Below, in pieces: positions 47,051 to 56,024 of a stretch of 64,000 bases of DNA. The DNA is taken from assembly GCF_000368565.1 (NCBI RefSeq), contig NZ_KB849544.1, forward strand, positions 491,994-555,993, read 5' to 3'. The notes below the pieces were generated by a model. That model worked only from the letters and a program-made list of their open reading frames with translations. It was not told the origin of the DNA and did not search any database. Position 1 is the first letter of the stretch; the number at the start of each line of letters is the position of its first letter. Origin of the DNA: Acinetobacter gerneri DSM 14967 = CIP 107464 = MTCC 9824. GTDB taxonomy: Bacteria > Pseudomonadota > Gammaproteobacteria > Pseudomonadales > Moraxellaceae. Position numbers and translations under genes: made by a program.

Positions 47051-47785
47051 TTATTCAAAATAATCAGCTGTTGGCACTGGTAAATCCTGTAGCCCTTTTT
47101 TTAAAGTATCTGACCATGCTTTACTAATATTTTCAAAATACGGATCTTCCTGATAAATCCGTTTGCCGATTGGCACATTTAGACGATCTTTGTGATAAAT
47201 CAAAGCATCTAAAGGCATCCCAACTGAAACATTCGAACGCAAAGTTGAATCAAAAGAAATCAAACTACAACGCAATGCTTCATCAAGTGGCATATCATAA
47301 CGCAATGCCCGATCCAAAATCGGTTTACCATATTTACTTTCACCTATCTGAAAATAAGGCGTATCGCTCGTCGCACAAATAAAGTTACCTTGAGGGTAAA
47401 TATTATAAAGTTGCATCTCTTGATTTTTAATCTGACCACCGACCAACAAACTACAATAATAGTTACTCTGGTCTTGGGTGTCTGCGGTCACATCAGAAAT
47501 AATCGCTTTCAGTGTTTTCCCGACCAATTCAGCCACTTCAAACATGGTGTTGACACTGTAAAGATTCTGTTCTTGATGAGTATCGAGTTGATTTTTGAGA
47601 TGCCCAATGACAGACTGCGTTGTCGCTAAATTCCCAGAAGTTTGGATCGTAATAAATCGATCTCCAGCAATTCCGAACGTATAAAGCTTTCTAAATACCG
47701 AAATGTGATCCACACCTGCATTGGTACGGGTGTCGCTAATAAAAACCAAGCCTTCTTTTAAGCGTAGCGCACAACAATACGTCAT
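47051..47785 (-). CDS. Anbu proteasome-like peptidase
   Basis: Member of the proteasome/HslV N-terminal-nucleophile family, Anbu (BPH) branch. 244 residues from the ATG at 47785, which AAGGA precedes; this makes Thr2 (MTYCCAL) the nucleophile after Met removal, as in Anbu. LVFISDTRTNAGVDHISVFRK is the family signature, with DSTLRSNVSVG typical of the C-terminal half. It is the last gene of a cluster with transglutaminase-like, alpha-E and circularly permuted ATP-grasp genes, the association noted by comparative genomics for peptide-like amide synthesis and turnover. Substrate unknown. Confidence 0.9.
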   Translation of the reverse strand: MTYCCALRLKEGLVFISDTRTNAGVDHISVFRKLYTFGIAGDRFITIQTSGNLATTQSVIGHLKNQLDTHQEQNLYSVNTMFEVAELVGKTLKAIISDVTADTQDQSNYYCSLLVGGQIKNQEMQLYNIYPQGNFICATSDTPYFQIGESKYGKPILDRALRYDMPLDEALRCSLISFDSTLRSNVSVGMPLDALIYHKDRLNVPIGKRIYQEDPYFENISKAWSDTLKKGLQDLPVPTADYFE

Positions 47786-47864
47786 AAGACATCCTTCATC
47801 CATGCTATAAAGCAGTTGAAATTAACTAAAACTATTCTCATGAAATATTAAAAATATCAATCAA

Positions 47865-48647
47865 TTAACAAGGAAGCACTTGCACAATCGACTGCATACT
47901 TTCAATCCCCCCTTTTTGTCGCACCCCACGTACTGGTGCAACATCCCAATAATCGCGCCCTATTGCCACATAAATATGTGAACTAGGAGTGAATAGCTGA
48001 TTACTAATATCAAAACAATACCATGAATGATCCAGATAAACCTCAGTCCATGCATGACTCGCAAGGTGTGTTTTATCCTCTACATACAAATACCCTGAAA
48101 CATAACGTGCAGGTATGTTGAGTGACTTACACATCGCGATAAACACATGACTATGGTCTTGGCACACTCCTTGTCTTGCTTGAAATGCATCAATTGCAGA
48201 AGTATGTACATTGGTGCTAAAACTCGAATATGGCATATATGCCAATAAGGCTTGAGCCAACGAAATCAAGTTTTTCCGATTGGTAATGGGAACATATTTA
48301 AGTGCAAATTCATGCATTTCTTGATTAAAGAAGGTGCTTAATGTAGGTTGCAAAAAAACCAATGGATTGAGTGAACAATCATGTGAAATAGAATCACTAT
48401 TAGGCTGAATTTCAACAATTCCTTGTGCCATAATCACCATTTGCAAATAAGAAAATCTTTGTGTGCTAGTCACCCAAAGATTATTAAAAGCATCACGATT
48501 TAGCGTTTTTTCACCAGGCACACTGATATCCCAAGCCAGAACCTGTTGATGAGCATTACTCTGTGGCATCATTTTGATGTATTGAATACTATTTTTTGCA
48601 TAATCCGTATATTGATAATGTGTCTGATGATTGATCATAAGTTTCAT
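47865..48647 (-). CDS. Transglutaminase-like cysteine peptidase of the Anbu cluster
   Basis: 260 residues. N-terminal beta-rich domain (1-115) followed by a transglutaminase-like core with catalytic Cys162 (ARQGVCQDHSHVF), His198 (ASHAWTEVYL) and Asp213 (CFDISN). Triad complete, so active. No signal peptide. Its ATG overlaps the end of the alpha-E gene by four bases, indicating translational coupling. In such clusters it is thought to cut or transfer amide bonds in a product made by the ATP-grasp enzyme; that is inference. Confidence 0.9.
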   Translation of the reverse strand: MKLMINHQTHYQYTDYAKNSIQYIKMMPQSNAHQQVLAWDISVPGEKTLNRDAFNNLWVTSTQRFSYLQMVIMAQGIVEIQPNSDSISHDCSLNPLVFLQPTLSTFFNQEMHEFALKYVPITNRKNLISLAQALLAYMPYSSFSTNVHTSAIDAFQARQGVCQDHSHVFIAMCKSLNIPARYVSGYLYVEDKTHLASHAWTEVYLDHSWYCFDISNQLFTPSSHIYVAIGRDYWDVAPVRGVRQKGGIESMQSIVQVLPC

Positions 48648-49246
48648 ACATCTACCTCAAATAAATATTGGATTTGATCGCAAAATTGGTGAAAGCTTGC
48701 CTGATTAAAATCAGTTTTTAACAACTGCCATGGTTTATTTAATGTGGACCAACCTTTTTGTTGTAAACAATCAATCAGCCACTGCATTTCTTTAAAAATA
48801 TGCAGCGATGATTCCCCCAACCGCAAAGCATGATCCAAGTTTTCAACGCATACACCCAGACTATAAAATACAAAAATATCTTCTTGTTCAGACTGAAAAA
48901 CCTCATGGCAAGTTTCGACCACTTCACAAATATATGTAAAATTTGGCACTAATATTTTCATCTGTGCCTGTAAACTTGCAAAACTTTGTTTATCAAGCAC
49001 CCCTCGTAAATCCAGAATATTATTTCTAATCAACTGAAATTGTTGATGAAATGAGATATAGCTTTCTGGATTTATAATAAGTGTATTTAAACTTTCAACG
49101 TTATAAGCAGGCAAAGCAAAAGCTTTGCTGTATTGCAATGCTCGATCATCATCTACAAAAGGAAAAGCTGCGCATAGATATTGAACTCGTGTCAAATATC
49201 TTCCTAGCCAAAAAATTTGTTCAGCATTACTGGTCAATAAAATCAT
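48644..49246 (-). CDS. Alpha-E domain protein, copy 1
   Basis: 200 residues, all-helical. Starts with the alpha-E hallmark LLTSNAEQIFWLGRYLTRVQ. The domain is found only beside circularly permuted ATP-grasp, transglutaminase and Anbu genes, and its function is unknown. It sits between the ATP-grasp gene (37 bases upstream) and the transglutaminase gene (4-base overlap). A second alpha-E gene lies at 51123-51725. Full alpha-E proteins are often about 310 residues, so this is a shorter form. Confidence 0.88.
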   Translation of the reverse strand: MILLTSNAEQIFWLGRYLTRVQYLCAAFPFVDDDRALQYSKAFALPAYNVESLNTLIINPESYISFHQQFQLIRNNILDLRGVLDKQSFASLQAQMKILVPNFTYICEVVETCHEVFQSEQEDIFVFYSLGVCVENLDHALRLGESSLHIFKEMQWLIDCLQQKGWSTLNKPWQLLKTDFNQASFHQFCDQIQYLFEVDV

Positions 49247-49282: not shown

Positions 49283-50836
49283 TTATGAATGCAGAGTATC
49301 GACGATCCAAGTATCTTTGATACCACCACCTTGTGAAGAATTGACGACCAACGAACCTTGCTTCATTGCCACACGGGTTAAACCACCCGGTACAATTTCA
49401 GTTCGATAAGGCGAACTTAATACAAAAGGTCGTAAATCAATATGACGTTCCGCAATTCCCTGAGCCGTTAAAGTTGGTGAAACAGACAGGTCTAATGTCG
49501 GCTGTGCAATATATAACTCAGGCCTAGCTGTTATTTTTTGTCTAAAACTTTCAATTTCCACTGCACTTGCCTGTGGTCCGATCAGCATGCCATAGCCTCC
49601 TGAACCTTGTGCCTCTTTCACCACCAGCTCAGATAAATGCTGCAATACATATTCTCTATCTGTTTTTTCACGGCATTGATAAGTAGGAACATTTTTTAAG
49701 ATTGGCTGTTCTGAAAGATAAAAATCTATCATTTTATCGACATAAGGATAAATCGACTTATCATCAGCAACCCCAGTACCTGGTGCATTTGCAATCAATA
49801 CATTTTTTGCAGCATAGGCTGACATCAAACCAGCAACACCTAAAGTACTATCAGGTAAAAAACATAATGGATCAATAAATGCATCATCAAGGCGCTTATA
49901 AATCACATCTACCCGTTGCTTCCCAAAAACTGTTTTAACGTAGACTTTAGCATTTTCAACAAATAAATCTTGTCCTGTTACCAAAGGTACATCCATTTCC
50001 TTGGCTAAAAAAGCATGTTCATAATAAGCACTATTATATCGACCTGGCGTTAATACCACGATAAAGGGTTGATCAACATAAGCATTTTCACATAATATTT
50101 CTTTTAACAAGCTTGGATATTGTTCAATTCCCGCCAACTGATTTTGCTGACATAAATCAGGCATCAATTTTTCGCTAATTTTACGGCTTTCCAACATATA
50201 AGACACACCAGATGGTGTACGTAAATTGTCTTCTAATACAAAAAACTCCCCCGAACGATCACGAATAATATCAATACCACTAATATGACTATAGATTTTA
50301 CCTTTCAAATCTAACTCCATCATTTGCGGTAAAAATGCCTCATGACCCAAAACTTGCTGTGCAGGCACAAGACCAGATCGGAGAATTTCTTGTTGATGAT
50401 AAATATCATCTAGGAAAAGGTTAAGCGCACGCACCCTTTGTGCGCAGCCTTGCTCAATTTTATGCCATTGTTGTTTAGCGATCACACGTGGAATTAAATC
50501 AAATGGTATGGTTCTTTCAATCCCAGCAGCCTCTCCATAAACAGCAAATGTAATCCCGTGATATAAAAAATGTTGCTTGGCTTGTTCATTTAAAGCTTTT
50601 AGCTGATCGAGACTATGTTGACACAACCATTCTTCGATTTTTTTTGATGCCTCAAAAGACATTGAACAATCATCTAACATTTCATTAAAAAAGTTAGATT
50701 TTAATTGGTCAAAAAGATAGGCAGTACTGTTAGGCTGCACAAGTTCGACTTGTAATGCTTCTTTAAGTATGAGTGATTCATTTTCTAGCCCAAAATTGTC
50801 TGTGGCTAGACTTGTATCTTTATCTTCTTTAAACAT
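49283..50836 (-). CDS. Circularly permuted ATP-grasp type 2 protein
   Basis: 517 residues from the ATG at 50836, preceded by GAGG; the upstream ATG at 50869 lacks an RBS. DUF404/DUF407-type circularly permuted ATP-grasp ligase: HGITFAVYGEAAGIERTIPFD, VLEDNLRTPSGVSYMLE, VLTPGRYNSAYYEHAFLA, VDVIYKRLDDAFIDPL, NAPGTGVADDKSIYPYVDKM and VKEAQGSGGYGMLIGP are the conserved blocks. Such enzymes are predicted to join an amino acid or amine to a carboxylate using ATP. It heads the run ATP-grasp / alpha-E / transglutaminase / Anbu. Confidence 0.92.
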   Translation of the reverse strand: MFKEDKDTSLATDNFGLENESLILKEALQVELVQPNSTAYLFDQLKSNFFNEMLDDCSMSFEASKKIEEWLCQHSLDQLKALNEQAKQHFLYHGITFAVYGEAAGIERTIPFDLIPRVIAKQQWHKIEQGCAQRVRALNLFLDDIYHQQEILRSGLVPAQQVLGHEAFLPQMMELDLKGKIYSHISGIDIIRDRSGEFFVLEDNLRTPSGVSYMLESRKISEKLMPDLCQQNQLAGIEQYPSLLKEILCENAYVDQPFIVVLTPGRYNSAYYEHAFLAKEMDVPLVTGQDLFVENAKVYVKTVFGKQRVDVIYKRLDDAFIDPLCFLPDSTLGVAGLMSAYAAKNVLIANAPGTGVADDKSIYPYVDKMIDFYLSEQPILKNVPTYQCREKTDREYVLQHLSELVVKEAQGSGGYGMLIGPQASAVEIESFRQKITARPELYIAQPTLDLSVSPTLTAQGIAERHIDLRPFVLSSPYRTEIVPGGLTRVAMKQGSLVVNSSQGGGIKDTWIVDTLHS

Positions 50837-51048
50837 ACAAACCTCGTCTTTTGATTGAATAAATTTCAATTATTCAAAAGCAACAATAATGCCAATATAT
50901 TCAGCAACAACAGTCGGCAAATTGGGCTAGTTAGAATTTACGAAAATAACAAATTCTATTAGCCCATGTATAAAGTCGAGATTCAATGTATCTATGATGA
51001 ATAGATGTATCAAAATATAGTCAACATTTTGATAAAATTGAGCAAATA

Positions 51049-51080
51049 AAAAACCCAAAGATACTATTTGGGTTTTTTAA
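51049..51080 (-). terminator. Intrinsic terminator of alpha-E copy 2
   Basis: AAAAAACCCAAA / TTTGGGTTTTTT, a 12-bp complementary stem with T-tail on the minus strand. It separates alpha-E copy 2 from the ATP-grasp operon. Confidence 0.9.
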
Positions 51081-51122
51081 AATAATTTTAAATTCAGTTA
51101 TTTAAACTATAGGTTTACATTT

Positions 51123-51725
51123 TTATTGATTCGCTTCAAAAGCACATTGCATCTGATCATTGAAATGGTAGAAGTGATTTATATCTGACACTTTTTTAAA
51201 ATTATGCCATGCATCACACAAGCTTTCCCAACCTCGAGCATGTAATAACTGCATCATAGGTGCAATTGTCTTTAGACTATGAGAAATTGGCAAACCCAAT
51301 TTTAATTGAATATCAACTTGCTCAATATGTTTCCCCAATCGATAAAAAAATAAAATTTCATGTGATTCTTGTTCTAAAATTCGTTTCGATGCATCGATCA
51401 ATACTGAGATCTGTTGCGTATTTTCAGTGGCTTGTAAAGTGAGATCAGAAAGTTCCTGAAAAGTTGAATCGGACAATAAATCCTTGATATCAACCAAGTC
51501 ACGCTTGATGGTCTGAAATTGTTTATAAAAAGAAAATGGTTGTAGATGATCATAAAGCAGATCATTTAAAGAACTTGCATCAAATGCGGCTAAACAAAAA
51601 GCTCTAGAAAATTTAATGGCTTTATCATTTTGCTGAAATGGTACTTGCTGAGATAAGAATTGCATTCGATACAGATGGCGTCCAAACCAATAAACGCTTT
51701 CTAATTTCGAACTCCTCGTATTCAT
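51123..51725 (-). CDS. Alpha-E domain protein, copy 2
   Basis: 200 residues, same length as copy 1 and sharing its plan: KLESVYWFGRHLYRMQFLSQ at the start, KFSRAFCLAAFDASSLNDLL, FYKQFQTIKRDLVDIKDLLS, and a helical end with GWESLCDAWHNFKK matching GWSTLNKPWQLLKT of copy 1. It is a diverged paralogue. It has its own terminator, so it is likely expressed separately from the ATP-grasp operon. Function unknown. Confidence 0.88.
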   Translation of the reverse strand: MNTRSSKLESVYWFGRHLYRMQFLSQQVPFQQNDKAIKFSRAFCLAAFDASSLNDLLYDHLQPFSFYKQFQTIKRDLVDIKDLLSDSTFQELSDLTLQATENTQQISVLIDASKRILEQESHEILFFYRLGKHIEQVDIQLKLGLPISHSLKTIAPMMQLLHARGWESLCDAWHNFKKVSDINHFYHFNDQMQCAFEANQ

Positions 51726-52139
51726 TTTTCCCTCCGCTGTTCTTCATCTTTATGTGTTTTGAGATCATAGAATATTTAAATCAAAATGAAGAAATAGTTA
51801 GAATTGGTTATTAAACTAACATATGAACTTTTAAAAATTAAAGTCAGTTTTGTATCATATACTGTCAAAAAGCACTTAATAACGTGTGATTTTTCCTGCA
51901 ATTTAATTTTAGAAATTATCAGAATTTGATTTAAATGTATTGAATAGAAAGCTTTTTTTATTATCAATAAAACCAATATAAGATTTTATAAATTCTTACA
52001 TTTTTTTATAATAATCCTTAAAAATTGACTGTTCTTACTATTTTTTTAACGTCTAAGACTTGAAGTTTTATGTCAAGACACTTACATTTAGACCCTTGGT
52101 GCTGATCTTTTAATCTAAATAGGTTCGATTTCAAAGTCT
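51726..52139. other. Intergenic region between divergent alpha-E copy 2 and the WYL regulator
   Basis: 414 AT-rich bases, no gene. Near the WYL gene lie nested inverted repeats: GTCTAA (52051) with TTAGAC (52088), enclosing CTTGA (52059) with TCAAG (52073). They could be an operator for the WYL protein or an RNA structure. Confidence 0.45.
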
Positions 52140-53138
52140 ATGTCCGTACAAGAAAAAGAAACTTCCAACAGTTTATATAGACAATGGCAAATCCTGTCAC
52201 GCCTTTCTACGGGTAAGTGGATGGGTACGCGTGAGTTACAAGAGATTTTGTTGCGTGAAGGGATTGATATTAGTTTAAGAACTATTCAACGTGACTTAAA
52301 TCAAATTTCTCAACGTTTCCCGATCGAAAGTAACAAAACCATTCCTCAAGGTTGGCGTTGGCGTTCCGATGCCCCGATCCAAAGTCTGCCACATATGACT
52401 AGTTCTCAAGCGGTCACATTTATGATGGTTGAAGAACATCTTAAACATTTGTTGCCGCCAAGTTTGATTGATGAAATGAATCCTTGGTTTGATCTGGCAA
52501 GACGCAGTCTTTCCACTCAAAACAATGTCCGTCAATGGATTAACCGTGTCCGTATAGTCCCAGCCAATCAACCACTGATACCGCCTGTGGTTGAGCGCCA
52601 AGCTCAGCAATCGATCTATGAAGGTTTATTGCAAGACAAGCAAATTGAGTGTGTCTATCAAGCACGTGGGCATCAAGGTGAAGACCGTACTTACACCTTA
52701 AATCCACTCGGTTTAGTACAAAAAGGTTCGATTATTTATTTGATTTGTACACGATTCGATAAATCCGATGTACAAACTTTTGCCTTACATCGTTTTAAAT
52801 CAGCCAAAGTTTTAGACTCTCGCGCCCTGCATCCTGTGGATTTCGATATTGATGCCTATATTGATTCGGGTGCTCTCGGTTTCCGTGTGGACTTTAGTAA
52901 GCCGACTGAAAATGTTGATCTAAAATTGACAATGAATGAAGCGGATGCACACTACTTTTCAGAAAGTCAGTTGAGTCAGCAACAAAAAATTGAAAAACTG
53001 GACAATGGTCTATATCAGATCTCAGCAACAGTACCATTAACCAATCAATTGGTGTCATGGCTACGTAGTTTTGGTAAAAAAATTATCAAAATAGAGCCTG
53101 AAATGTTAGAAAATTATGTCAATGAATTAGAAAGCTAA
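52140..53138 (+). CDS. WYL-domain transcriptional regulator
   Basis: 332 residues. N-terminal winged helix-turn-helix (LSRLSTGKWMGTRELQEILL, SLRTIQRDLNQISQRFPIE) at about 18-65, central WYL domain at about 160-235 (IECVYQARG, YTLNPLGLVQKGSIIYLI, FALHRFKSAKVL), then a WCX extension to the end. WYL regulators sense oligonucleotides or other small ligands and often control defence or DNA-damage genes. It is divergent from the Anbu/alpha-E cluster, which makes that cluster a candidate target; no defence genes are nearby. Confidence 0.9.
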   Translation: MSVQEKETSNSLYRQWQILSRLSTGKWMGTRELQEILLREGIDISLRTIQRDLNQISQRFPIESNKTIPQGWRWRSDAPIQSLPHMTSSQAVTFMMVEEHLKHLLPPSLIDEMNPWFDLARRSLSTQNNVRQWINRVRIVPANQPLIPPVVERQAQQSIYEGLLQDKQIECVYQARGHQGEDRTYTLNPLGLVQKGSIIYLICTRFDKSDVQTFALHRFKSAKVLDSRALHPVDFDIDAYIDSGALGFRVDFSKPTENVDLKLTMNEADAHYFSESQLSQQQKIEKLDNGLYQISATVPLTNQLVSWLRSFGKKIIKIEPEMLENYVNELES

Positions 53139-53177: not shown

Positions 53178-53822
53178 TCAAAACATTAAATTCAAAGCAG
53201 CCTGTTTTAGTAAAGGTAGATGTTTTTCAATTTCTATTTCATGAAAGCCCATCGTACCGATCGCCAAATGCCGATTAGGTACAGGTATAAAAAGCCCAAC
53301 TGCACCTAGCTGTAAAACATTTTGCGAAAATGCATAACCTTGCTGTCTTGCAAGTTGTATTTCTTGATCTTCATTATTTTGTTCTGGATAGGTACACGCG
53401 ATCGCAATCCCTGCTGCTGCCACACCAATAGGATGACGCGTACCCAAGCGATAGCTTAGCTGTAAAAATGATGATGAATGACACGCTGTTTTCACCACAA
53501 CACATTCATTACCTTCTGCTAGAACCATTGCTGTAACAGCTTGAGTCTGTTCTGAAAGTTGTTCAAGCACTGTCTGACTTTGGGCAGGAATACTTTGCTC
53601 AAAACCTCGATAAAGCGGCAATATCTTGGCACTAATCGACAAGTGTTGCTGATCAGGCAAATGCACATAACCCATTTCCACCAAAGTATGTACCAAACGG
53701 TAAATCACCGTACGGTTCATCTCAAGTTGCTGTGCCAATTGTGCAATGGTCAATTTACCCTGATGCTTGGCAATGGTTTCTAAAACTAGAAATCCTCTTT
53801 CCAATGTTTGTAAGCTTTGCAT
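53178..53822 (-). CDS. IclR-family transcriptional regulator
   Basis: 214 residues from the ATG at 53822 (MQSLQTLERGFLVLETIAKH), preceded by AGGGT; an ATG at 53837 has no RBS. Winged helix-turn-helix at about 1-65 (LTIAQLAQQLEMNRTVIYRLVHTL), effector domain to the end (HPIGVAAAGIAIA). Slightly shorter than most IclR proteins at the C-terminal end. It is divergent from an MHS transporter whose upstream region carries a PobR/PcaU-like palindrome; control of that transporter is likely. Confidence 0.9.
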   Translation of the reverse strand: MQSLQTLERGFLVLETIAKHQGKLTIAQLAQQLEMNRTVIYRLVHTLVEMGYVHLPDQQHLSISAKILPLYRGFEQSIPAQSQTVLEQLSEQTQAVTAMVLAEGNECVVVKTACHSSSFLQLSYRLGTRHPIGVAAAGIAIACTYPEQNNEDQEIQLARQQGYAFSQNVLQLGAVGLFIPVPNRHLAIGTMGFHEIEIEKHLPLLKQAALNLMF

Positions 53823-54306
53823 GTCTACCCTCAACATTTCAGCGTTGATATTGCATCTTTAAAATTGAGTTCGCAACTTTTCTTTGTTTGAAATTTTTAT
53901 ATTTAAATAAAGTTCGATCCAAACTTTTTACAAAATTGTATTTCCAACCAAGATCTGAAAATATTTAGCTTTATTTTCAATAAATTAAATAGAAAATACT
54001 ACAAATTGAAATGATTGAGCCGAATTTTGAGAAATCGTTAGGCTAGATACGCTACTGTAAGTAACTTTGTTTAAACAATTGAAAATTATTAAATAATGTA
54101 TAAAACAAGCTTATTTAAAATGATTAAATGAAATATGTTTCATTTATTTTTTTATTATAAAAATAATGAATCAAATTATTGACAAAAATAACTTAAATAT
54201 TCATTATAAATTTTCTATTAAAGAACATTTGGTTCGATTATAGAACACATTCAGGAAGAATGCGCTTAAAAACAATAAACCAAGATCAAATACAGGAATA
54301 TCTGTT
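53823..54306. other. Regulatory region between the IclR-type regulator and MHS transporter genes
   Basis: 484 AT-rich bases without a gene. TTGACA at 54179-54184 with CATTAT 17 bases later is a possible transporter promoter. GTTCG half-sites recur at 53869, 53911 and 54232. Confidence 0.5.
54223..54246. promoter_or_regulatory. IclR-type operator (PobR/PcaU-like) upstream of the MHS transporter
   Basis: GTTCGATTATAGAAC (54232-54246) is GTTC-N7-GAAC and agrees with the GTTCGATAATCGCAC operator known for Acinetobacter PobR/PcaU at 12 of 15 positions (consensus from memory). A further GAAC at 54223 makes a third half-site: GAAC-N5-GTTC-N7-GAAC. It lies about 60-80 bases before the start codon and downstream of the proposed promoter. 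Confidence 0.6.
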
Positions 54307-55689
54307 ATGGAAAACGTAAAATCCGTCGCAATCAGCGATGAGAATATCACACATGATAGTGAAAAAATTAGTCAAAAACGTGTCGCTTTTGCCACTGTCA
54401 TTGGCACAACGATTGAATGGTACGATTATTTTGTATATGCAGCTGTTGCTGGTCTGGTTTTTAATCAAATATTTTTTGCACCCGCAGGTCCTGTCGTTGC
54501 CAACTTATTGGTTTTTGCCTCTATCGGTATTAGCTTTATTTTCAGACCATTAGGTGCTTTTATTGCTGGACATTATGGCGATAAACTTGGTCGACGTTTA
54601 ATGTTGGTCCTCACGCTGGTCTTAATGGGAGGAACGACAACTCTAATTGGATTATTACCGACCTATGCTCAAATCGGTATCGCAGCACCTATTCTTTTGA
54701 TTTTATTGCGTATCTTACAAGGCATATCAGCTGGTGGTGAATGGGGCGGCGCAGTACTTATGGCTGTAGAACATGCACCTAAAGAAAAACGTGGACGTTT
54801 TGGTGCTTTCCCGCAACTTGGTGTTCCTCTAGGTCTACTTTTAGCTTCTTTGGTTTTAGTGATCATGACTGGTGTGGTTTCGCCGGGTGAAGAGTTTGTA
54901 CAATGGGGCTGGCGTATTCCATTTTTGTTGAGTTTGGTCCTACTTGCTATTGGTCACTGGATTCGTCGTTCAGTTGATGAAAGCCCTGTTTTTGAAGAAA
55001 TCAAACATCGTAAATCAACCATCCAAAACCCGATCAAAACTTTATTTAGCAAATATAAAAGTTCTGTTTTACTCGCTGCGTTACTTTGCGCAGGTGTAAC
55101 AGGTTTAGGTTATATGACGACGGGTGGTTTTATTCAAAACTATACAACTAACCCAAATGGTCCATTTAAGCTTGATCGTACGATTATCCTTTCTTTAGTC
55201 ACTGCTTCTGCTGTCATTTGGGCTTTGGTGACTTGGATTTCGGCATCACTTTCAGATCGTTTTGGTCGTAAAAAAATCTATATCATCGGCACCATTTCTC
55301 AAATCATCGGTGCACTGTGTTTATTCCCATTTGTCGATATGGGTACATATACAGGTATCGCAATTGGGCTATGTATTTTGTCAGTCGGAATCGGTTTAAC
55401 CTACGGCGTACAAGCAACTTTCTATGCTGAACTCTTCCCTGCTTCAGTACGTTTCTCTGGTATTTCAATCACCTATGCGATTGGTTCAATCTTGGGCGGC
55501 GCATTTGCTCCACTGATCGCGGCATGGATCGTCAACGCTACAGGTGGCACAACTTACGTCACGGTTTATTTATGTGTCATCGCAGGTCTTGCATTCTTGG
55601 CTTCAATCCTCCTCAAAGATCGTACAGGCATCGACTTAGGTCCTGACAATGAAGAACAGCAAAATGAATCACCTTTGATTTGGAAATAA
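54307..55689 (+). CDS. MHS-family MFS transporter (ShiA/ProP type)
   Basis: 460 residues with 12 predicted membrane segments, metabolite:proton symporter family. VIGTTIEWYDYFVYAAVAG opens the first helix, GHYGDKLGRRLMLV is the conserved loop 2-3, GISAGGEWGGAVLMAVEHAP marks helix 4, and LSDRFGRKK repeats the loop in the second half. The closest recognisable relatives are shikimate and alpha-ketoglutarate-type symporters. Its divergent IclR-type regulator suggests a role in uptake of an aromatic or hydroxy acid; the substrate is not determined. Confidence 0.9.
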   Translation: MENVKSVAISDENITHDSEKISQKRVAFATVIGTTIEWYDYFVYAAVAGLVFNQIFFAPAGPVVANLLVFASIGISFIFRPLGAFIAGHYGDKLGRRLMLVLTLVLMGGTTTLIGLLPTYAQIGIAAPILLILLRILQGISAGGEWGGAVLMAVEHAPKEKRGRFGAFPQLGVPLGLLLASLVLVIMTGVVSPGEEFVQWGWRIPFLLSLVLLAIGHWIRRSVDESPVFEEIKHRKSTIQNPIKTLFSKYKSSVLLAALLCAGVTGLGYMTTGGFIQNYTTNPNGPFKLDRTIILSLVTASAVIWALVTWISASLSDRFGRKKIYIIGTISQIIGALCLFPFVDMGTYTGIAIGLCILSVGIGLTYGVQATFYAELFPASVRFSGISITYAIGSILGGAFAPLIAAWIVNATGGTTYVTVYLCVIAGLAFLASILLKDRTGIDLGPDNEEQQNESPLIWK

Positions 55690-55853
55690 GGCATTATTTT
55701 CAATGATATATTTAAAGTTTCTGTAAAAAATATTTTATAAACTTTGAAATGTTCTAAAAAATAAATGAGTGAGTATTCGGACCAATACTCGCTCAAAACT
55801 TTTTATCTATTTTATTTAAAATTTCTACATTATTATTTATTTTAAAATTTAAA
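55690..55853. other. AT-rich 3' flank of the transporter gene
   Basis: No gene. It lies between the transporter stop codon and the hairpin of the micro-gene. Confidence 0.4.
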
Positions 55854-55888
55854 TTTTCAGTAGCTCAAACCCCTTAAGCTACTGAAAA
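55854..55888. terminator. Strong hairpin terminator of the micro-gene
   Basis: A 12-bp perfect stem TTTTCAGTAGCT / AGCTACTGAAAA (13 bp counting the next A-T pair) with an 11-base loop, AT-rich on both sides. On the minus strand it lies 20 bases after the micro-gene stop codon. Confidence 0.8.
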
Positions 55889-55908
55889 TATTTGGAGTTA
55901 TCAAACTT

Positions 55909-55965
55909 TCACATACAACAGCAAGCAAGTTCTGCGCTATTATATCTGATACTTTTCATGGTCAT
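55909..55965 (-). CDS. 18-residue cysteine-ended peptide, unknown micro-gene
   Basis: ATG at 55965, preceded by AAGAGGTG with seven bases between. The peptide is MTMKSIRYNSAELACCCM, ending in three consecutive cysteine codons (TGC TGT TGT) before ATG TGA. A promoter (55996-56024) lies just upstream and a perfect hairpin (55854-55888) just downstream, so it is a complete transcription unit of about 130 bases. The sequence is too polar for a type I toxin. Triple Cys could bind a metal, sense cysteine supply by ribosome stalling, or be a precursor for modification; no gene follows on the same strand and no modifying enzyme is near. I recognise no family. Confidence 0.5.
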   Translation of the reverse strand: MTMKSIRYNSAELACCCM

Positions 55966-55995
55966 GGCTTTCACCTCTTGTTTGAACGTAAAGCC

Positions 55996-56024
55996 AATAT
56001 AGCGTGATTTTTTTAAGCTGAAAA
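55996..56024 (-). promoter_or_regulatory. Sigma70-type promoter of the micro-gene
   Basis: On the minus strand TTTTCA (56019-56024), a 17-base spacer, then TATATT (55996-56001): four of six and five of six consensus matches. Confidence 0.55.

Follow-up and report, generated by a model that had tools for sequence, protein, structure and literature searches.

The question raised by the minus strand around positions 55,854 to 56,024 of the window (the whole stretch of 64,000 nucleotides of Acinetobacter gerneri DNA that was analysed) is whether the parts of a very small gene seen there amount to a gene, and if so whether selection acts upon its peptide, its RNA or both. All the parts listed in the initial annotation were found in order on the minus strand. 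A −35 hexamer TTTTCA (56019-56024; TTCACA at the aligned place in many relatives) stands 17 bp from a −10 hexamer TATATT (55996-56001), and the promoter position would put the transcription start near 55989. A ribosome-binding site AAGAGGTG (55972-55979) forms part of a leader ACGTTCAAACAAGAGG common to many relatives, and is followed by the micro-ORF MTMKSIRYNSAELACCCM (55909-55965), with its ATG at 55965, 18 codons and a TGA at 55911-55909; codons 1-15 are its conserved core. A predicted RNA stem, H1 (55909-55949 in the fold of the window), takes in the ORF's 3' portion together with the stop codon. Beginning 19 nt past the stop is a hairpin, H2 (55853-55889), with the loop GGGGT (GGGG at 55870-55873); this is the hairpin earlier described as 12-13 bp, and it is present and longer than that: the fold gives it 16 bp and the terminator scanner 17 pairs. 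A further hairpin at 55767-55794 and the T-rich stretch after it (together H3, 55757-55794) are the probable transcript end; the scanner calls this hairpin for the plus strand only, and its role as a minus-strand terminator is probable. The transcript so predicted, 55989-55757 and 233 nt long, has a folding z of −4.85, and the next gene is a convergent one, a plus-strand MFS gene ending at 55689. The Rfam scan of the whole window gave no match at gathering score, and the best weak hit, to atoC, scored far below that threshold (E 0.16, 21.1 of 50 bits). By shuffling, promoter-like matches are unremarkable (4 found, 2.1 expected) and chance seldom yields terminator-like sites (2 found, 0.1 expected). 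It is conservation in relatives that lifts the microgene above chance.

That conservation extends across most Acinetobacter species examined, in a genus that includes a major hospital pathogen. DNA BLAST gave matches to the microgene in 31 of 99 genus genomes, and in 29 of the 30 retrieved loci the promoter, leader and SD can be aligned and the encoded peptide follows the same design; a chance match to query bases 1-27 (L023) and the chance matches of the window's own genome (L031-L039) are left out of the member counts. Promoter and leader were aligned in 25 sequences. A sequence-only DNA model built from 25 BLAST-locus sequences finds matches in 154 of 175 Acinetobacter genomes at E ≤ 0.01, in answer to the earlier suggestion that relatives be searched. 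Of these, G130, G131 and G162 (E 0.003-0.007) have the appearance of chance matches, and three others are decayed copies: G128 has kept promoter, SD and MTMK and lost the remainder, G151 has a stop at Cys15, and in G029 ATC replaces ATG. Another genome, G038, has an altered copy, MTPQKSIHLNDAELTCL. The orthologue of the A. baylyi type strain is in L076. Multi-copy occurrence, which had also been raised, was not seen in the window genome, where one model match stands at E ≤ 0.01 and the others, from a search at E ≤ 10, are at E 0.03 or worse; blastn of PLSDB gave no plasmid copies. A Moraxellaceae-wide draw of 149 genomes contained 34 model matches, 32 within the genus and two weak ones outside it (E 0.002-0.003). 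Searching one genome each of 84,980 species with the exact peptide pattern MT-x-K-x-IR[YF]N-xx-[DE][LMI]AC, which would miss departing members, gave 96 stretches, by their record titles 95 from Acinetobacter and one from a Moraxellaceae MAG.

The BLAST and pattern searches together supplied 125 loci (some species twice), which reduce to 103 distinct members, all pattern-picked. The pattern fixes M1, T2, K4, I6, R7, Y/F8, N9, D/E12, A14 and C15, where invariance is by construction, and so both the invariant residues of this set and its dN/dS of 0.115 (0.044 at the ten fixed codons, 5.97 in a shifted frame) are biased towards conservation. In members not chosen by pattern the core MT-x-K-x-I-R-[YF]-N-x-x-[ED]-[LMI]-A-C is nonetheless under purifying selection, with dN/dS of 0.12-0.30. 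All 29 of the BLAST-locus ORFs fit the core unasked (dN/dS 0.121; 22 distinct, 16 pairs). A further set was reached through the position of the WYL gene or through the DNA model, its ORFs being picked only by MT...IR.[NS], and it yielded 23 peptides, 22 of them full-length. Among those 22, K4 is found in 20, Y/F8, N9, E/D12 and A14 in 21 each, and L/M/I13 and C15 in all; its dN/dS of 0.303 denotes weaker constraint than in the pattern-selected set, and the two sets not chosen by pattern, when pooled, give 0.205 (41 distinct, 30 pairs). Variation at third codon positions is free. Among the divergent members are MTFKHIRYNRGELAC..., MTKRQIRFNRAELAC... and MTIRRIRFNTDMLACRC, and peptide length is mostly 15-23 residues, reaching 30 in a divergent clade. 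The first 15 residues thus appear to be the product under selection, the constraint being seen at the level of codons and translation presumed from it. That the ORF arose by chance in a terminator region, or is what remains of a decayed gene, would suit the commonness of promoter-like matches, but the spread of model matches over 154 of 175 genomes, with the dN/dS found in members not chosen by pattern, leaves that reading scarcely credible.

In character the peptide does not resemble the hydrophobic, membrane-active type I toxins, the sampled values of mean hydropathy running from −0.88 to 0.44. Three members of 21-23 residues, scanned against Pfam and NCBIfam, matched no profile and so no family there; the 18-residue peptide of the window is below scannable length.

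The end of the peptide behaves quite differently from its core. Tails range from none (21 of the 103 members) to eight residues, with types such as CCM, CNM, CLM, RC, LC and QC, and the number of Cys per member runs from 1 to 4, so that the thiol- or metal-related peptide which had been offered as a possibility from the terminal Cys run is not supported; a triple-Cys metal or thiol motif was accordingly rejected. Loss of the triple Cys with retention of the hairpin had been named in advance as the mark of a mere terminator region. The loss and the retention are indeed what is found, and the conclusion drawn from them is wrong because the codons upstream of the tail are conserved as peptide, and for the same reason a terminator-only reading was rejected. 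A cysteine-sensing leader, in which a ribosome stalling at Cys codons switches a downstream structure as in an attenuator, was likewise suggested by the layout, and it can draw upon the Cys codon near the end of nearly all members and upon H1, which lies over those codons and the stop and would be sensitive to where the ribosome stands. But no conserved run of Cys codons exists among the 103 members (22 have a single Cys), residues unrelated to Cys are about equally conserved, and a downstream gene on the same strand is as a rule lacking: the next gene is convergent in 121 of the 125 loci, co-directional in three (at 256 nt in two records from a single genome and at 1.2 kb in the third) and not seen in one. 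The earlier remark that no co-directional gene follows thus applies well beyond the window, and the attenuator is a very improbable account of the locus.

What then fixes the codons of the tail is likely to be the stem H1, in which codons 10-15 are base-paired to the tail, to the stop and to bases beyond it. Among the 67 members with Cys17, codon 16 is NNA in 65, whichever amino acid it specifies: Arg is CGA in 24 of 24 (14% usage in neighbouring genes), Gln is CAA in 18, Leu is TTA or CTA in 15 and Ser is TCA in 8 of 8 (19% usage in neighbouring genes). The Cys15 codon is TGC in 101 of the 103 members, compared with 27% usage in neighbouring genes. Cys15 is fixed by the pattern in these members yet also present in all 22 full-length members of the position/model set, where TGC is used by 18 and TGT by 4. 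Among 28 sequences that share one geometry (26 of them distinct), 82.3% of cells pair; their covariation reaches 0.280 against 0.219 when shuffled (equalled in 0 of 500) and at most 0.090 when the arms are slid. Double changes, seen at 7 of 15 pairs, are not exceptional (shuffle mean 5.4, reached in 80 of 500), and RNAalifold on the same alignment returns six inner pairs only and no double change. Exchanging the 3' partner between members weakens the stem, from −8.59 with its own to −7.07 ± 0.18 with a swapped one in 95 distinct sequences, and from −10.06 to −8.24 ± 0.31 in a reduced set of 46. By eye other tail classes seem to adopt other geometries of H1, and the form that H1 takes in the window is less regular than the stem of its relatives. 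The Cys/Met tail would on this evidence be mainly a coding echo of the 3' arm of H1.

H2 is maintained in a different fashion, its GGGG loop being kept while the arms are rewritten between species. GGGG occurs 3' of the stop in 82 of 103 members where dinucleotide shuffles predict 24.3, the other 21 having none in the scanned stretch. For 25 representatives with upstream arms that differ at no fewer than 10 of 28 positions, an H2 arm with its own partner gives −15.18 and with a swapped partner −8.44 ± 0.54, and GGGG is 80% unpaired. As computed, within each of H1 and H2 the two arms fit each other across species through compensatory change. Only 41 of the 103 3' regions have a folding z below −2, and the mean is −1.7. 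By eye, many relatives have a further hairpin and a T run after H2, the counterpart of which in the window lies at 55767-55794. Taken together the GGGG count, the H1 covariation and the partner swaps indicate an RNA structure under selection of its own.

Since the peptide is constrained and H1 and H2 covary, the transcript of about 230 nt seems to be selected for both peptide and fold, and the reading we favour, at a probability of roughly 0.6 and as judged from comparative sequence analysis, is that the microgene specifies a genus-wide dual-function RNA. The alternatives first offered, a stand-alone small peptide or a dual-function RNA, fit because selection is seen on both. The RNA conservation could serve only the stability or termination of the peptide's mRNA, and a simpler microgene may be drawn on this basis, with the 15-residue core as its sole product and H1 and H2 merely protecting and terminating a very short message. 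Hairpins near the 3' end commonly stabilise short mRNAs, and amino acid constraint in members not chosen by pattern is just what such a gene would show. A mere stabiliser, however, needs neither the GGGG loop nor an NNA at codon 16 regardless of the amino acid, and in many relatives a separate terminator-like hairpin follows; we regard this peptide-only gene as possible, though unlikely.

As a dual-function RNA the microgene would be transcribed from its own sigma70-type promoter, the transcript ending before the convergent gene or at a terminator common to both. Translation would give the peptide of mostly 15-23 residues, and H1, since it lies over the last codons and the stop codon, would be opened by the translating ribosome, so coupling translation to the fold or the life-time of the RNA. 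H2 would display its mostly unpaired GGGG loop, which may act by base-pairing or by binding a protein. The peptide itself might act in trans as a small soluble partner protein, and the process it joins would most plausibly be the one served by the neighbouring WYL/Anbu locus.

The genomic surroundings bring in that locus. Upstream the neighbours fall into 13 clusters (named partly by eye: mnmG, purA, monooxygenase-like, malonate decarboxylase-type, MFS, ADP-ribosylglycohydrolase and others), often reading in the direction of the microgene, and so read-through into it is possible. Downstream, the adjacent convergent gene in 109 of the 125 loci encodes a WYL-type regulator, 121-268 nt off and in one locus 485. 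In the window the homologue of this usual neighbour, a WYL+WCX regulator (52140-53138, plus strand), is separated from the microgene by an IclR regulator (53178-53837) and the MFS transporter gene (54307-55689, plus strand); in A. stercoris (L092) the microgene is also followed by an MFS gene, one belonging to the same cluster. Divergent from the WYL gene is an operon for a circularly permuted ATP-grasp (49283-50869), an Alpha-E protein (48644-49246), a transglutaminase-like protein (47865-48647) and a Proteasome-family protein (47051-47803), all on the minus strand; the last is regarded as Anbu because of its family and the operon it belongs to, and the set corresponds to the Anbu operon as described in PMC5666114 and PMC6376114. 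A second alpha-E-like protein of 200 residues, with no Pfam hit, is encoded at 51123-51725, also on the minus strand.

Whether the peptide is a substrate, a tag or a regulator of this Anbu, ATP-grasp, alpha-E and transglutaminase system, with the WYL protein as the switch, is a question that overlaps with both of the preceding readings (dual-function and peptide-only), and an affirmative answer is at present a tentative and rather doubtful one. The WYL gene is adjacent and convergent in those 109 loci although the upstream neighbour differs widely. An intact microgene is present in 141 of 150 genomes with Anbu and in 7 of 25 without, and in 137 of 144 with the ATP-grasp and 11 of 31 without, where intact means that the model matched at E ≤ 1e-5, unless the locus was read, and some genomes were placed by elimination; Fisher tests give p ~1e-12 for both co-occurrences with relatedness ignored. 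The decayed or strongly altered copies seen (G128, G151, G029 and G038) are, four of four, in genomes without an ATP-grasp match, G038 having kept Anbu. On a tree of the WYL protein (131 rows, one gene, from a sample enriched for genomes lacking one trait) dependent-loss models fit better than independent ones, and the models of correlated evolution give p values of 1e-4 and 5e-5 for the ATP-grasp and of 0.009 and 6e-4 for Anbu. Independent-pair tests, in contrast, are not significant (ATP-grasp, median p 0.125 and best 0.0625; Anbu, median 0.5 and best 0.25), and the loss model for Anbu falls to p 0.2 with one clade collapsed and G151 and G029 scored intact. A control gene, ADP-ribosylglycohydrolase, shows no association with microgene loss (Fisher p 0.38), and, with only 24 of 175 genomes carrying it, is weakly matched. 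That the microgene is often lost or decayed where the Anbu operon has been lost is a suggestive pattern in the genomes compared, and a functional tie to the Anbu locus is likewise no more than suggestive, the tree-based tests disagreeing.

Other observations count against such a tie. Four genomes (G135, G149, G108 and G112) have an intact microgene and no operon gene found beside WYL, three have the microgene away from WYL, and among the genomes with Anbu eight are without the microgene and one has an altered copy. No operator common to the WYL/ATP-grasp region and the microgene was found, only short words in at most 6 of 67 loci. The promoter of the ATP-grasp gene looks sigma54-like: in the regions of relatives homologous to 50870-52139 of the window the ATP-grasp side has an element TGGCAY..TTGCTT, seen by eye in many of 18 relatives' loci, and this is in line with the high expression of Anbu under nitrogen starvation that is reported in PMC6376114. 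The Anbu operon is known far beyond Acinetobacter, and in PMC5666114 its authors state that their own data make a role of Anbu in peptide synthesis less likely. It is quite improbable that in Acinetobacter the Anbu system has its missing substrate or signal in the 15-residue peptide; if true, the ATP-grasp, alpha-E and transglutaminase enzymes would extend or conjugate the peptide and the Anbu particle would remove it, and the system would have a genome-encoded minimal peptide supplied by an RNA whose translation itself reads out the fold.

Beside WYL in G151, G029, G089 and G156, four genomes that lack an ATP-grasp match, are proteins matching by tblastn the second alpha-E-like protein (36-37%) and the alpha-E protein (40-42%). 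In six loci (L048, L101, L117, L185, L187 and L193) the Anbu gene adjoins WYL and no ATP-grasp gene intervenes; this suggests that Anbu does not need the remaining operon in order to work. In three genomes of a divergent Acinetobacter clade the microgene has been relocated, away from WYL, to two sites (L196 3372-3719, L197 2397-2735 and L198 3296-6056). There it stands tail-to-tail with ErpA, an Fe-S insertion protein, in two genomes and with the cysteine desulfurase of a family-2A encapsulin in one, the gene for this cargo adjoining that of the encapsulin shell; the neighbours may reflect a sulphur theme or a coincidence.

Five member peptide strings had no occurrence in the papers searched, and a wider search of titles and abstracts returned nothing on the microgene. 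The terms mnmG, gidA and WYL are absent from the main text of four Acinetobacter sRNA papers (PMC12802169, PMC5320573, PMC11472050 and PMC6978653). An sRNA already listed in the AB5075 sRNA table may be the microgene transcript. Most copies have fewer than 30 codons, which was the cut-off for ORFs in one AB5075 sRNA study (PMC5320573).

Among known systems the polycysteine leader ORF attenuators of mycobacteria are similar in layout, for they too combine a short Cys-containing ORF with a hairpin close to its stop; the microgene is unlike them in that its next gene is convergent at 121 of 125 loci and that its Cys run is not conserved while its non-Cys residues are. Methanobactin-like and other RiPP precursors are short peptides with Cys near the end, and the microgene too gives a short peptide, starting MT.K, with Cys near its end, whereas its Cys pattern is not conserved; no MNIO-type gene was found among the ten window genes scanned, and apart from the ATP-grasp of the Anbu operon it has no ligase-like neighbour. 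With stand-alone bacterial small proteins such as AzuC, Blr and CydX it has in common promoter elements of its own, an SD and purifying selection, and it departs from them in having only some 15 conserved residues, a mean hydropathy near zero or negative in the values sampled and a peptide pattern that, outside Acinetobacter, hit a single Moraxellaceae MAG. The seeds of base-pairing sRNAs are usually C-rich, and the candidate recognition loop here is by contrast G-rich. SgrS/SgrT and SR1/SR1P are dual-function RNAs, and they share with the microgene as predicted here a single short transcript holding a small ORF and a structured RNA part. The same likeness extends to VcdRP, a dual-function RNA whose VcdP has 29 residues (PMC8672173), although the ORF of the microgene is shorter, at mostly 15-23 codons. 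What none of these dual-function RNAs is known to have is a stem over the coding end and stop, and here two codes overlap, the same bases giving a conserved peptide and a covarying stem. By kind the microgene belongs with the dual-function RNAs and the micro-proteins, and it is a variant among them because its coding end overlaps a covarying stem across the stop; as far as the comparison of genomes can say, it is most likely a new dual-function RNA.
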